Shown one piece after another: positions 5,375-37,448 of a stretch of DNA of 64,000 bases (positions are counted from its first letter, which is position 1; each line of letters starts with the position of its first letter). The DNA is taken from NCBI RefSeq assembly GCF_001434895.1, contig NZ_AZEE01000030.1, positions 62,001 through 126,000 on the forward strand, read 5' to 3'. Made by a program: the position numbers and the translations under genes. Under the pieces are notes generated by a model. That model was not told the origin of the DNA and searched no databases. It saw only the letters and a program-made list of their open reading frames with translations. This stretch comes from Secundilactobacillus odoratitofui DSM 19909 = JCM 15043 (GTDB taxonomy: Bacteria > Bacillota > Bacilli > Lactobacillales > Lactobacillaceae).

Positions 5375-5656
5375 ATGATGAATCGAATTAACCTTCAGTT
5401 GGTGGCGATGGGACGACAAATGACCAAGGGGCAGTTCCTAATATTACTGTTGAATGGTGCGACCTTCTTAACCTTGATTTTGGGCTCATCGAACTTCCTC
5501 TTTGCCCTTATGATTTTTACTAGCTTGATGCTACTCAATGGTCACTTTATTGTGTACGCTTCGACAGTACGCGCAAGCTATCTGCAACGGTTGGACCTTT
5601 GGTTGATTGGTTTAACCTTGGTGGCCGGTTACTTCAAGCTTATGGCTGGTATGTAG
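5375..5656 (+). CDS. Small membrane protein of unknown function
   Basis: A 93-residue protein with three likely transmembrane segments (about 22-37, 42-62 and 76-90) and short basic N-terminal and loop regions. I do not recognise the family. The ATG at 5375 has AAGGAG nine bases upstream. It stands alone between a possible cre site and the terminator at 5713-5756. Confidence 0.65.
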   Translation: MMNRINLQLVAMGRQMTKGQFLILLLNGATFLTLILGSSNFLFALMIFTSLMLLNGHFIVYASTVRASYLQRLDLWLIGLTLVAGYFKLMAGM

Positions 5657-5712: not shown

Positions 5713-5756
5713 TAAGAGCGTTCCTAAACTCAGTTTGAATTTAGGGACGCTCTTTA
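5713..5756. terminator. Terminator after the small membrane protein
   Basis: A 14-bp stem, AGAGCGTTCCTAAA against TTTAGGGACGCTCT with one mismatch, has an 11-base loop and is followed by a short T run. Confidence 0.8.
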
Positions 5757-5796
5757 ATGACGTATGAGAATTAAATTACTGAGGCTGCCGTCTCCA

Positions 5797-5960
5797 GTTA
5801 CCAGAAATCGGGGGCTTGCCGTGGGGTCGGTTCGAGCCGAAGAGCGGTCTCGAACCTCGAATTGAAGACCCGCCAAAGGCCGTGCGGGTCTTCAATTCGT
5901 CCCTGCCTGGTGGCAAAGTCCCACCAGGCATTTCACCGCAAGCCCCCGATTTCTGGTAAC
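5797..5960 (-). repeat. Cloverleaf-like structured element, copy 1
   Basis: A perfect 23-bp outer inverted repeat (5797-5819 with 5938-5960) encloses three perfect hairpins: GGTTCGAG/CTCGAACC (5829-5836, 5849-5856), a 15-bp stem starting GAATTGAAG (5859-5873, 5884-5898), and TGCCTGGTGG/CCACCAGGCA (5904-5913, 5921-5930). Together they form a four-way junction. Minus orientation is assigned because the reverse complement shares its single-stranded motifs GCGGTGA and GGGACGA and the third hairpin with copy 2 at 6217-6377. No coding capacity. I cannot match it to a named RNA or repeat family. Confidence 0.8.
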
Positions 5961-6076
5961 TTCCGACTAAGTGTGTTGTAACATGTCACAGTTATTTAAT
6001 ATTAAATAAAGCTAATGATTCAGGATACTCACTTGATACGCAGAAAACTACTATAAGTAAAAAAATTGAATGACAA

Positions 6077-6130
6077 AAACAGCTGTAATGGGATCAGTTA
6101 GCCGACCCATCATTACAACTGTTATTTTTT
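6077..6130 (+). terminator. Orphan terminator between the two cloverleaf elements
   Basis: A strong stem pairs AACAGCTGTAATGG with CCATCATTACAACTGTT (small bulges) and is followed by ATTTTTT. No gene precedes it on the plus strand for over 400 bases, so it may end a small RNA. Confidence 0.7.
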
Positions 6131-6216
6131 AGTGTGTTGATGAAAAAGTTAGTTGCTCACTTGAGCATGAAATCAAGTATAATTCCAATTTTAGCCAAAA
6201 TGAAGCCGTAGTGCTA

Positions 6217-6377
6217 GTGGTCGATTGAAACCTGTGGTGGCGGTGATACCAGGTGGTTTTCCTGGGATCACGGGACGACGTTTGAGACTCACAACGATTC
6301 TTGGTGAGGCTCAAATGCGAGGGTCGAGACCGCTTTTCGGCTCGACCCGGTCCCCACTTCAGGTTTCAATCGGCCAC
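6217..6377 (+). repeat. Cloverleaf-like structured element, copy 2
   Basis: An 18-bp outer stem (6217-6234 with 6360-6377, one G-U type mismatch) encloses three hairpins: GTGATACCAGG/CCTGGGATCAC (6243-6253, 6261-6271), TTTGAGACTCAC/GTGAGGCTCAAA (6281-6292, 6304-6315) and GGGTCGAG/CTCGACCC (6321-6328, 6341-6348). The layout is the same as copy 1 in reverse complement. The outer arms are unrelated in sequence to copy 1 yet still pair, and the third hairpin differs by a compensatory T-A to G-C change. This indicates that structure, not sequence, is conserved. Confidence 0.8.
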
Positions 6378-6452
6378 TGGCCGGAGGCTGTGAGTTAACA
6401 AGGACTTAACATTTCTAAAAGTTGAGTGTCAGATTAATCAACTACCGGTAAG

Positions 6453-7352
6453 TCACGCATTTCCTTCGCACTGCATATACCGACTCATAATCGTCAAATG
6501 GTGTTGAATCGTGAGCGACTTCAACACGCCCATCCCCGGAAAATGATGCTCGTCGGCTAATTGTAAAAGTTGTGCGGTAGCCGGCGTTTGATTCACAGGT
6601 GAAAGGGTGTTGATCCAGGCAACTGCTTTGGCCAATGCCTCAAAGTATTTTTCACGTTGATGCTTAAAGTCTTCATGTTGGTCTGAAACAAAGTGACGGA
6701 TGCGAATCTGCTGGTTGGATAAATAAATTAAATGCAGCGTGACTGTCCGACTAGCATGGCCACGCTCGAAGTAGGGCGCTCCTTGGGTGAGATAATCGCT
6801 GAAGCCTGTTTCACCATACTGCTCAGCAAATTGCCAATCATTGCTAAAGAAGCTATCGGTCAATCGGGAAAAATCAGCGCTATGATCAGGTACTTGGTAG
6901 TGATCAAATAAGTGGCCAAAGTTACGGCCAGCTAACAATCGGCGAATTCTTGCTTCAGGTGGTGCAAGGATTGTGGCGGAATTTGGTAACCAATCATGAT
7001 CGATAAATAGTTTTAAATCAGCGTAGTGTTGAACAATGACCAGACTATTTTCAAGTTGTTCCGATGGCAAAAGTGGCGTCAAAATGTAGGCTGGTTTGAT
7101 TTCGGAAAAGCGAAACAGGTCATCGATTGGGTACCGCTTGGCTGCCTGGTAGTTATAGTGATCAACCTGTGGATTTTTAATGACGGCTAACGATTGCCCG
7201 TTTTGATGCGCACGGGACAATAATTTTGGTAATGCTGGTACGTCACGAACTGGTTCTATGATTGGCACCACGTTAGGCGTTGCCGTTTCAGTAAAAGTTG
7301 ATAGGGCGGCTAAGTCAAACTGGCGACCGCGAAGATAGGGGTAGTAGATCAT
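6453..7352 (-). CDS. sce7725-like (beta-type) protein
   Basis: A 299-residue soluble protein whose N-terminus YYPYLRGRQFDLAAL, the NVVPIIEPV segment and the AVIKNPQ segment look like the sce7725 family, related to phage T4 beta-type proteins. Family biochemistry is undefined; members are often encoded beside an sce7726-type nuclease. Its ATG overlaps the upstream stop codon as ATGA, so it is translationally coupled to the nuclease gene and is the last gene of a three-gene unit. A role with its nuclease and helicase neighbours in DNA repair or defence is inference. Confidence 0.65.
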   Translation of the reverse strand: MIYYPYLRGRQFDLAALSTFTETATPNVVPIIEPVRDVPALPKLLSRAHQNGQSLAVIKNPQVDHYNYQAAKRYPIDDLFRFSEIKPAYILTPLLPSEQLENSLVIVQHYADLKLFIDHDWLPNSATILAPPEARIRRLLAGRNFGHLFDHYQVPDHSADFSRLTDSFFSNDWQFAEQYGETGFSDYLTQGAPYFERGHASRTVTLHLIYLSNQQIRIRHFVSDQHEDFKHQREKYFEALAKAVAWINTLSPVNQTPATAQLLQLADEHHFPGMGVLKSLTIQHHLTIMSRYMQCEGNA

Positions 7353-10647: not shown

Positions 10648-10760
10648 AATGAAACCTTTAACAATTAGTCCTGTGAGGCTAAGAAGGATCGTTGAAAGTA
10701 CTAGACTTGTTCTAGTCTTTAGTGAACCTCTCTACCCACAGGCGGTAGAGAGGTTTTTTG
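10648..10760 (+). promoter_or_regulatory. PyrR-dependent attenuator of pyrBC
   Basis: The PyrR-binding loop AGTCCTGTGAGGCT (10667-10680) matches the Firmicutes consensus. An ACTAGA/TCTAGT antiterminator-side hairpin follows, then a 12-bp terminator AACCTCTCTACC/GGTAGAGAGGTT plus T run (10725-10759). UMP-bound PyrR is expected to favour termination. A further hairpin CGCGCTTTGC/GCAAGGCGCG at about 10829-10854 sits just before the pyrB ribosome site. The rest of 10446-10612 shows nothing coding. Confidence 0.92.
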
Positions 10761-10878
10761 TACACTGACGATTTAATTGTCTCCCGTGAGAGCAAAACGT
10801 CCAAAGGTAAGTTTTTGACCTAACAGGCGCGCTTTGCAAACACGGCAAGGCGCGTTTATTTTTAGGAGGATACTTACT

Positions 10879-37278: not shown

Positions 37279-37435
37279 AAAAAACGGCCCGAAGATAGCA
37301 ATTGTTATCTTCGGGTCGTCCTTTTGGCAATTTAAATTTAAATGCGATTTATCGTGCATTATGCTCCCTTCGCTGGTACTAACCAGATCAGGTTCAATGG
37401 GTGTATCTCAGCCAAAAGGCACCCCAGATAACGTT
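37279..37435 (-). promoter_or_regulatory. TPP riboswitch with terminator, leader of ykoEDC
   Basis: On the minus strand the leader contains the THI-box core GGCTGAGATACACCC and GAACCTGATCTGG, then CGAAGGGA, spanning about 37360-37430. A strong terminator follows at 37279-37320 (CCGAAGATA paired with TATCTTCGG, then T6). Thiamine pyrophosphate should cause termination and shut off uptake genes. Confidence 0.95.
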
Positions 37436-37448
37436 TAGTTCACTCACA

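Follow-up and report, generated by a model that had tools for sequence, protein, structure and literature searches.

A family of branched, interspersed repeats occurs in the Lactobacillaceae, and two of its members lie head to head at 5781-6390 of the window, which is the whole analysed stretch of 64,000 nt from the genome of Secundilactobacillus odoratitofui (G000). This cloverleaf is real, structured, repeated and widespread within the Lactobacillaceae, and its best reading is an interspersed structured repeat of the REPIN type. The two members (A and B) would be the two non-equivalent ends of one non-autonomous, REPIN-like mobile repeat of about 610 bp, whose ends are read by their structure and of which some copies have been kept for a host role; we consider the case for this explanation evenly balanced. 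It was not placed higher because G000 has no Y1 transposase or reverse transcriptase (RT) domain, and because copies at fixed loci have kept their structure. Mobility by single-stranded DNA, an enzyme acting in trans and the host role are inferred; no transposition, excision or transcript has been observed.

The preliminary description of this DNA had placed two inverted structured elements at 5797-6377, and inverted-repeat and fold analysis located both of them there (Table 1). The ends of B were set by aligning the B copies of G000. The predicted fold of B has an energy of -121.3 kcal/mol (shuffle z -14.1), and that of A -100.7 kcal/mol (shuffle z -10.3); in each case none of 200 shuffles was as good. 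The common architecture includes an outer stem (P1), hairpin 1, and a short GGGAC/GTCCC stem around hairpins 2 and 3. The outer stem had been recognised, but its length was given as 18-23 bp, which is slightly too short for arms of 28 nt. Three hairpins had also been described and are present; however, they do not stand side by side, and one hairpin is followed by the GGGAC/GTCCC stem, inside which the remaining two lie. The linker motifs GCGGTGA and GGGACGA and the last hairpin, reported as common to both elements, were found in both, and the alignment of cores showed that hairpin 3 is the most conserved part of the family. By eye, a terminator-like hairpin can be recognised in the spacer between B and A, at about 6080-6135. 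Elsewhere in the window, a TPP riboswitch (37347-37436, - strand) and a PyrR binding site (10651-10761, + strand) were recognised at the Rfam gathering score; no tRNA or tmRNA was found in the window.

Table 1. Features of the cloverleaf unit and its surroundings, in window positions. The limits of whole elements are approximate and include the end motifs.
Feature	Position	Strand	Remarks
Left neighbour gene	5375-5656	+	93 aa, no Pfam match, reads toward the unit
Terminator-like hairpin of the left gene	5714-5754		Immediately beyond the 3' end of B; also a sub-threshold Rfam alignment
Element B, whole	5781-5969	-	End motifs TAGTCGGAAG (5') and CTGGAGACGGC (3'); R1 core 5811-5946, 113.7 bits
Outer stem P1 of B	5796-5961	-	Arms 5796-5823 and 5934-5961, 28 nt, 96% complementary
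Hairpin 3 of B	5829-5856	-	Bulged A, CGAG-A-CCG / CGG-CTCG; predicted fold
Hairpin 2 of B	5858-5899	-	Arms 5858-5873 and 5884-5899, 100% complementary; predicted fold
Hairpin 1 of B	5904-5930	-	Predicted fold
Spacer between B and A	5970-6202		No homology to spacers of other pairs
Element A, whole	6203-6390	+	End motifs AGCCGTAGTGC (5') and GGCCGGAGGCTG (3'); R1 core 6227-6367, 111.8 bits
Outer stem P1 of A	6213-6381	+	Arms 6213-6240 and 6354-6381, 28 nt, 86% complementary
Hairpin 1 of A	6243-6271	+	Predicted fold
Stem P3 of A	6272-6354	+	GGGAC 6272-6276 with GTCCC 6350-6354; encloses hairpins 2 and 3
Hairpin 2 of A	6279-6317	+	GAGAC / GGCTC motif; predicted fold
Hairpin 3 of A	6321-6348	+	Predicted fold
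Right neighbour gene	6453-7352	-	299 aa, no Pfam match, reads toward the unit

The BLAST search revealed more copies of both A and B in G000. A covariance model (R1) was then built from 32 aligned cores, with a core of 137 positions and six helices. R1 gave at least 138 matches in G000, at least 136 of them distinct after two both-strand duplicates were dropped; these counts are lower bounds, as 150 of 419 candidates were scored. The matches are unevenly spread, with 14 distinct matches on the 70-kb contig C2, 13 on the 93-kb contig C11 and only 6 on the 680-kb contig C5. Among the Lactobacillaceae, R1 matches were found in 75 of 301 genomes and 11 of 40 genera, in a survey with stricter filters and at most 11 candidates scored per genome. 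A lack of further structurally matching copies in related genomes, which would have refuted the preliminary description, was therefore not met. Matches also occurred in 14 of 60 relatives, with at most 55 candidates scored per genome, and none was found by R1 in the 23 of these 60 that come from other families of the order. The copy number ranges from at least 55 per genome (G000, G010 and G045) to none by R1 search in G002, G003, G005 and G007 of the same genus. The exact hairpin 3 pattern was present in 46 stretches of named genomes, including Companilactobacillus (C. nantensis, C. huachuanensis and C. jidongensis), Levilactobacillus (L. suantsaiihabitans, L. brevis CD0817, L. tongjiangensis and L. 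yonginensis), Lactiplantibacillus xiangfangensis, Secundilactobacillus kimchicus and one uncultured MAG. A loose pattern search gave 26 places, three of which (L084-L086) were dropped as chance, having no cloverleaf-like fold, and the single pattern match in a viral contig was a chance 20-nt match in GC-rich sequence.

Searches of mobile replicons with individual copies gave little. The window unit matched neither phages nor plasmids; a C. nantensis copy matched no phage and, among plasmids, one reduced element; and a Levilactobacillus copy matched no plasmid. The reduced cloverleaf, on a Limosilactobacillus reuteri plasmid (L351:2970-3072), consists of the outer stem and hairpin 3 only. Its ends (TAGTCGGAAG...CTGGAGACGG) resemble those of element B, and an IS30-family transposase gene (39.1 bits) is located about 200 bp away. 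A repeat of about 900 bp in G010, without a long ORF, has the cloverleaf as one of its ends. This composite has imperfect terminal inverted repeats of 57 bp (TTGTGTCCAGCGTAAG...), and in a search of eight genomes its left 604 bp gave matches in G010 alone. The motif TTTTTTG lies within 26 nt outside 9 of the 14 located 3'-side ends of the G010 cloverleaf, compared with 1 of 11 5'-side ends. A simpler G010 repeat of about 320 bp (L164:139-456 and L167:477-795) has the same TTGTGTCC ends as the composite, so that a single type of end may be used by several families of repeats. Another dispersed long-hairpin repeat (L165:17290-17435 and 6383-6503) was matched many times in G001, G002 and G005, in which cloverleaf matches are few or absent.

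The preliminary description knew of no named family that fits, and this holds for Rfam 15 and for the open-access literature searched. At the elements, Rfam 15 gave no match at the gathering score and none relevant at E<=10, and for the G010 composite nothing relevant at E<=1; a known Rfam RNA identity is thus ruled out. A match to a described family, which would have been a refutation, did not appear in Rfam. No description of the repeat was recognised by title or start of abstract in the literature searched; the accessible part of one source gives Lactobacillus johnsonii with 3 clusters (PMC2267715).

That pairing is kept despite sequence change had been proposed from the two elements, and it is true family-wide. 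In the alignment of the 32 cores, 95.1% of pair cells are standard pairs, and 31 of the 41 pairs show two-sided compensatory change. The covariation score was 0.595, a value that none of 500 column shuffles reached (0.200 in shuffles), and it fell to 0.14 when the partners were slid by one column. The arms likewise differ in sequence between subfamilies yet pair. The G-U cells outnumber the A-C cells (60 vs 10); among 39 pairs tested, with 2 of the 41 left out for having less than 60% Watson-Crick cells, 21 lean to G-U and 3 to A-C. The G-U:A-C split is 46:4 in the inner helices and 14:6 in P1. This test tilts somewhat to the folded (S) strand, because the rows of the alignment (A1) were picked partly for folding and the structure came from RNAalifold, which permits G-U; the pair cells are also not independent. 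Selection on structure is strongly supported by the G-U bias, by the two-sided changes and by compensatory change at fixed loci, and the excess of G-U over A-C places this selection on one fixed strand. The bias does not separate RNA from single-stranded DNA.

The copies in G000 follow a strict pairing rule. Among the 136 matches there are 45 neighbour pairs less than 1 kb apart, and all 45 are head to head (-,+) with the 5' ends inward and the cores 117 to 365 bp apart; about 7.3 neighbour pairs, in whatever orientation, would be expected from random placement. Of the 27 close pairs in the named loci, 21 are also (-,+), with 15 in Companilactobacillus, 5 in Levilactobacillus and 1 in Lactiplantibacillus; the other six are three ++, two -- and one +-. 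Alignment of the B- and A-type copies showed sharp boundaries against unrelated flanks. The spacers of different G000 pairs are unrelated, which for these pairs rules out a single transposon with one conserved interior. Both ends could be located in 31 of the 45 pairs, and no target-site duplication was detectable in these, with no excess over shuffled partners. Some G000 spacers (pairs C4:284052, C4:343881, C7:8765, C11:10119 and C4:528995) contain short nested inverted repeats of the ACAGTGCCTATTGAAAAATAGGTGCA type, seen by eye, which are apparently a second small mobile repeat.

In the proposed explanation, each end would be formed by one strand, folded into a branched structure, with the 3' end outward. 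Recognition is probably of the folded single strand, which might be single-stranded DNA exposed in replication or, less likely, RNA; and the recognising enzyme would be supplied in trans. Insertion, or survival after insertion, would be concentrated behind terminator-like hairpins at gene 3' ends. The spacer would be free DNA and the pair the unit. Reading of the ends as folded single strands would explain why the stems covary freely and the junction and loop motifs are fixed. If folded ends define the unit, it would also be understood why close pairs in G000 are always head to head, with any spacer and no target duplication.

The location of the copies is clearly biased. The 45 G000 pairs are extragenic, with 16 in convergent, 26 in tandem and 3 in divergent ORF context (ORFs were called by length, without a gene finder), and a gene 3' end faces 42 of them. 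Terminator-like hairpins reading toward the outer end were found at 45 of 90 flanks and those reading away at 16; the shuffles gave an expectation of 13.2. The copies inspected mostly have their folded strand antisense to the gene that ends toward the element, and on the opposite side a gene of either direction may occur. For all 8 B copies inspected, the gene reads toward their 3' end; exceptions occur among other types. At the window locus, the relative G003, which has no R1 match, has 232 bp between the aligned flanks, compared with 932 in G000, and contains one terminator-like hairpin and no unit. Seven relatives (G012, G006, G009, G008, G001, G004 and G013) have an apparent extra gene at this locus, and G008, G001, G004 and G009 have other hairpin repeats there (both by eye). 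In the intergenic regions L300, L301 and L302 (G008, G001 and G004), yet another hairpin repeat, ACTCGGTAGATTCCAGAA...GGCCGGAATCTGAGTT, is located behind the gene ends of this locus.

In relatives with low copy number most copies are single and some stand in direct tandem, and these recur beside the same genes. For example, an ahpF-like gene adjoins the cloverleaf in G001, G004, G006, G008 and G013; an ABC-2-type membrane protein gene (Pfam ABC2_membrane_3), which we take to be yhgE-like, in G001, G004, G006, G009 and G012; and adhE in G001, G004 and G009. At such fixed loci the element aligns, the 5' flank hardly and the 3' flank partly (by eye). Two-sided compensatory change was found in 18 of 67 pairs among the five copies at the ahpF-like locus, and in 13 of 68 among the five copies at the yhgE-like locus. 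In a tree of 28 copies, with moderate supports, the five ahpF copies clustered, with the tandem second copy of G008 and without G013's; the three adhE copies clustered with one response-regulator copy; and the yhgE copies split in two groups. A few copies, in G008, G009 and G013, paired with another copy from the same genome. The main signal of this tree, at its moderate supports, is descent at the locus, with some later duplication or conversion and with the structure kept. The ahpF loci of G013 (L341:5136-5493) and G008 (L336:4339-4730) each hold two cloverleaves in direct tandem and not head to head. Fixed loci with preserved structure in several species point to a secondary host role of some single copies, which remains an inference from sequence comparison. 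Occurrence at the ahpF-like, yhgE-like and adhE loci with compensatory change is not expected of purely selfish DNA.

These loci also lend some weight to the main rival, an RNA role. The folded strand would be transcribed and act as a small RNA or as a 3'-end element of mRNAs, copied through some genomes; the same-locus copies with compensatory changes in several species would agree with this, and the preference of G-U over A-C and the complex junction with fixed unpaired motifs look RNA-like. However, no promoter excess was found by a simple sigma-70 consensus score against two-base-block shuffles, which does not cover other promoter types: the mean best score upstream of the 90 pair members was 7.62 vs 7.72 in shuffles, and upstream of 13 fixed copies 7.62 vs 7.75. 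The mostly antisense orientation of the folded strand, the frequent position behind a terminator-like hairpin and the missing Rfam match also count against this role, which we regard as a tentative possibility only. A plain noncoding RNA gene, one of the options first suggested, is less likely, given the lack of a promoter signal in front of the elements.

The head-to-head pairs between convergent genes might also result from two independent insertions, each at the terminator of its own gene. Single copies do exist (46 of the 136 G000 matches are unpaired in the match list), and the response-regulator locus has a pair in G013 and one copy in G001. However, 26 of the 45 pairs are in tandem and not convergent intergenic regions, and the end types combine non-randomly. 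For the end analysis, 112 of 136 copies had flanks, and a 5' end of type I or II was recognised in 92 of the 112; type I ends start with GTAACGAGAACGGAGG and type II with AGCCGTAGTGCC. The 45 pairs include 28 I/II, 4 II/II and 0 I/I combinations, with 13 having an unclassed or B-type end. Judged by these starts, the two ends of the unit are not equivalent, and independent insertion is a doubtful account.

The REPIN-like reading agrees with the organisation of the copies. In the accessible parts of PMC3733652 and PMC3116915, REPs and REPINs are described as high-copy extragenic palindromes with head-to-head dimers predominant and spacers that often vary in sequence and size, and CGTC REPs as lacking a dedicated transposase. 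Cloverleaf pairs are likewise head to head, extragenic and in high copy with variable spacers; replication of the unit has not been observed. A REP-like single-strand substrate, as suggested at the outset, is thus favoured by organisation, but not by size or by the absent Y1 domain. REPs are palindromes of 20-40 bp, whereas each cloverleaf half measures about 190 bp and contains three hairpins and two junctions. REPINs have GTAG or CGTC tags; no constant tag was seen in the cloverleaf, of which most B copies start with GTAGTC, A-type copies with AGCCGTAG and type I with GTAACGAG. No cognate RAYT (Y1) gene was found in G000 (0 PF01797), nor was this domain found in G013, G044 and G050; one or more occur in G001, G006, G007 and G008 of the same genus, which have few or no cloverleaf copies. 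The RT domain (PF00078) was also absent from G000, and no correlation of RT or Y1 domains with cloverleaf copy number was seen. An autonomous version with a transposase was sought by BLAST among four inter-element stretches (L345-L348), which gave element-sized matches only. Ten ORFs from three of these stretches showed no transposase in Pfam; they matched PepX, a hydrolase, a Na/H exchanger and, weakly, CapR and MAP17, and five had no match. The 46 unpaired G000 copies, the mostly single copies of low-copy relatives and the six close pairs of the named loci in other orientations also speak against the REPIN-like reading.

Beyond the REPIN-like reading, the cloverleaf might be a new kind of mobile unit, with two different multi-branched ends read by shape, 3' ends out on opposite strands, free cargo, an enzyme beyond Y1 and RT, and some copies adopted by the host. 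Such a unit could conceivably pass through a linear single-stranded intermediate, in which the folded 3' ends act like parvovirus ends. We consider this proposal unlikely at present.

The gene setting also allows a host element at the DNA level, acting at gene 3' ends in supercoiling, in protein binding or as a buffer between replication and transcription. The BIMEs of E. coli, for example, have a gyrase-binding role. The convergent or tandem setting, with 3 of 45 pairs divergent, and the occupation of the same loci in several species would fit this. However, many genomes have no copies, such as G002, G003, G005 and G007 of the same genus, and a function in double-stranded DNA would not yield the G-U strand asymmetry; this explanation is improbable. 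Palindrome correction, in which template switching copies one arm onto the other and covariation is a by-product rather than structural selection, would suit the long, near-perfect and highly variable palindrome of P1, but it would not favour G-U over A-C, and hairpins 2 and 3 have retained their conserved mismatch and bulge, so that it can hardly be maintained.

Comparison with other systems gave partial similarities only. Bacterial MITEs of the TIR type are also non-coding, with two inverted ends and a variable interior; whereas the cloverleaf end sequences vary between subfamilies with the structure kept, although the 900-bp composite of G010 has TIRs, and no target duplication was found in the pairs tested (31 of 45). 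SPRITE is a further interspersed repeat of Streptococcus pneumoniae. BOX and RUP are also interspersed repeats of this species, according to the accessible part of PMC3049150. The cloverleaf resembles all three as an interspersed repeat of a Gram-positive genome; no sequence relation was tested. Group IIC introns are structured and insert just behind intrinsic terminators without target duplication, and the cloverleaf is likewise a structured element behind terminators with no target duplication; however, G000 has no RT domain, Rfam intron families had no match at the elements, and the orientation of the folded strand to the terminator is the reverse of that in the introns. The attC sites of integrons are recognised as a folded strand, with conserved structure, free sequence and bulged bases that matter. 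Folded-strand recognition, as proposed for the cloverleaf, and structure over sequence are similar; whereas the three-hairpin architecture is different.

If the proposed explanation is true, a quarter of the sampled Lactobacillaceae genomes (75 of 301) would carry a structured repeat family without an Rfam match, and REPIN-type biology would be extended to much larger branched elements. The cloverleaf family would also offer a natural experiment on covariation in a branched single-strand structure. Two questions would thereby be made testable, namely the identity of the enzyme that recognises such shapes, and the reason for the retention of single copies behind particular genes.
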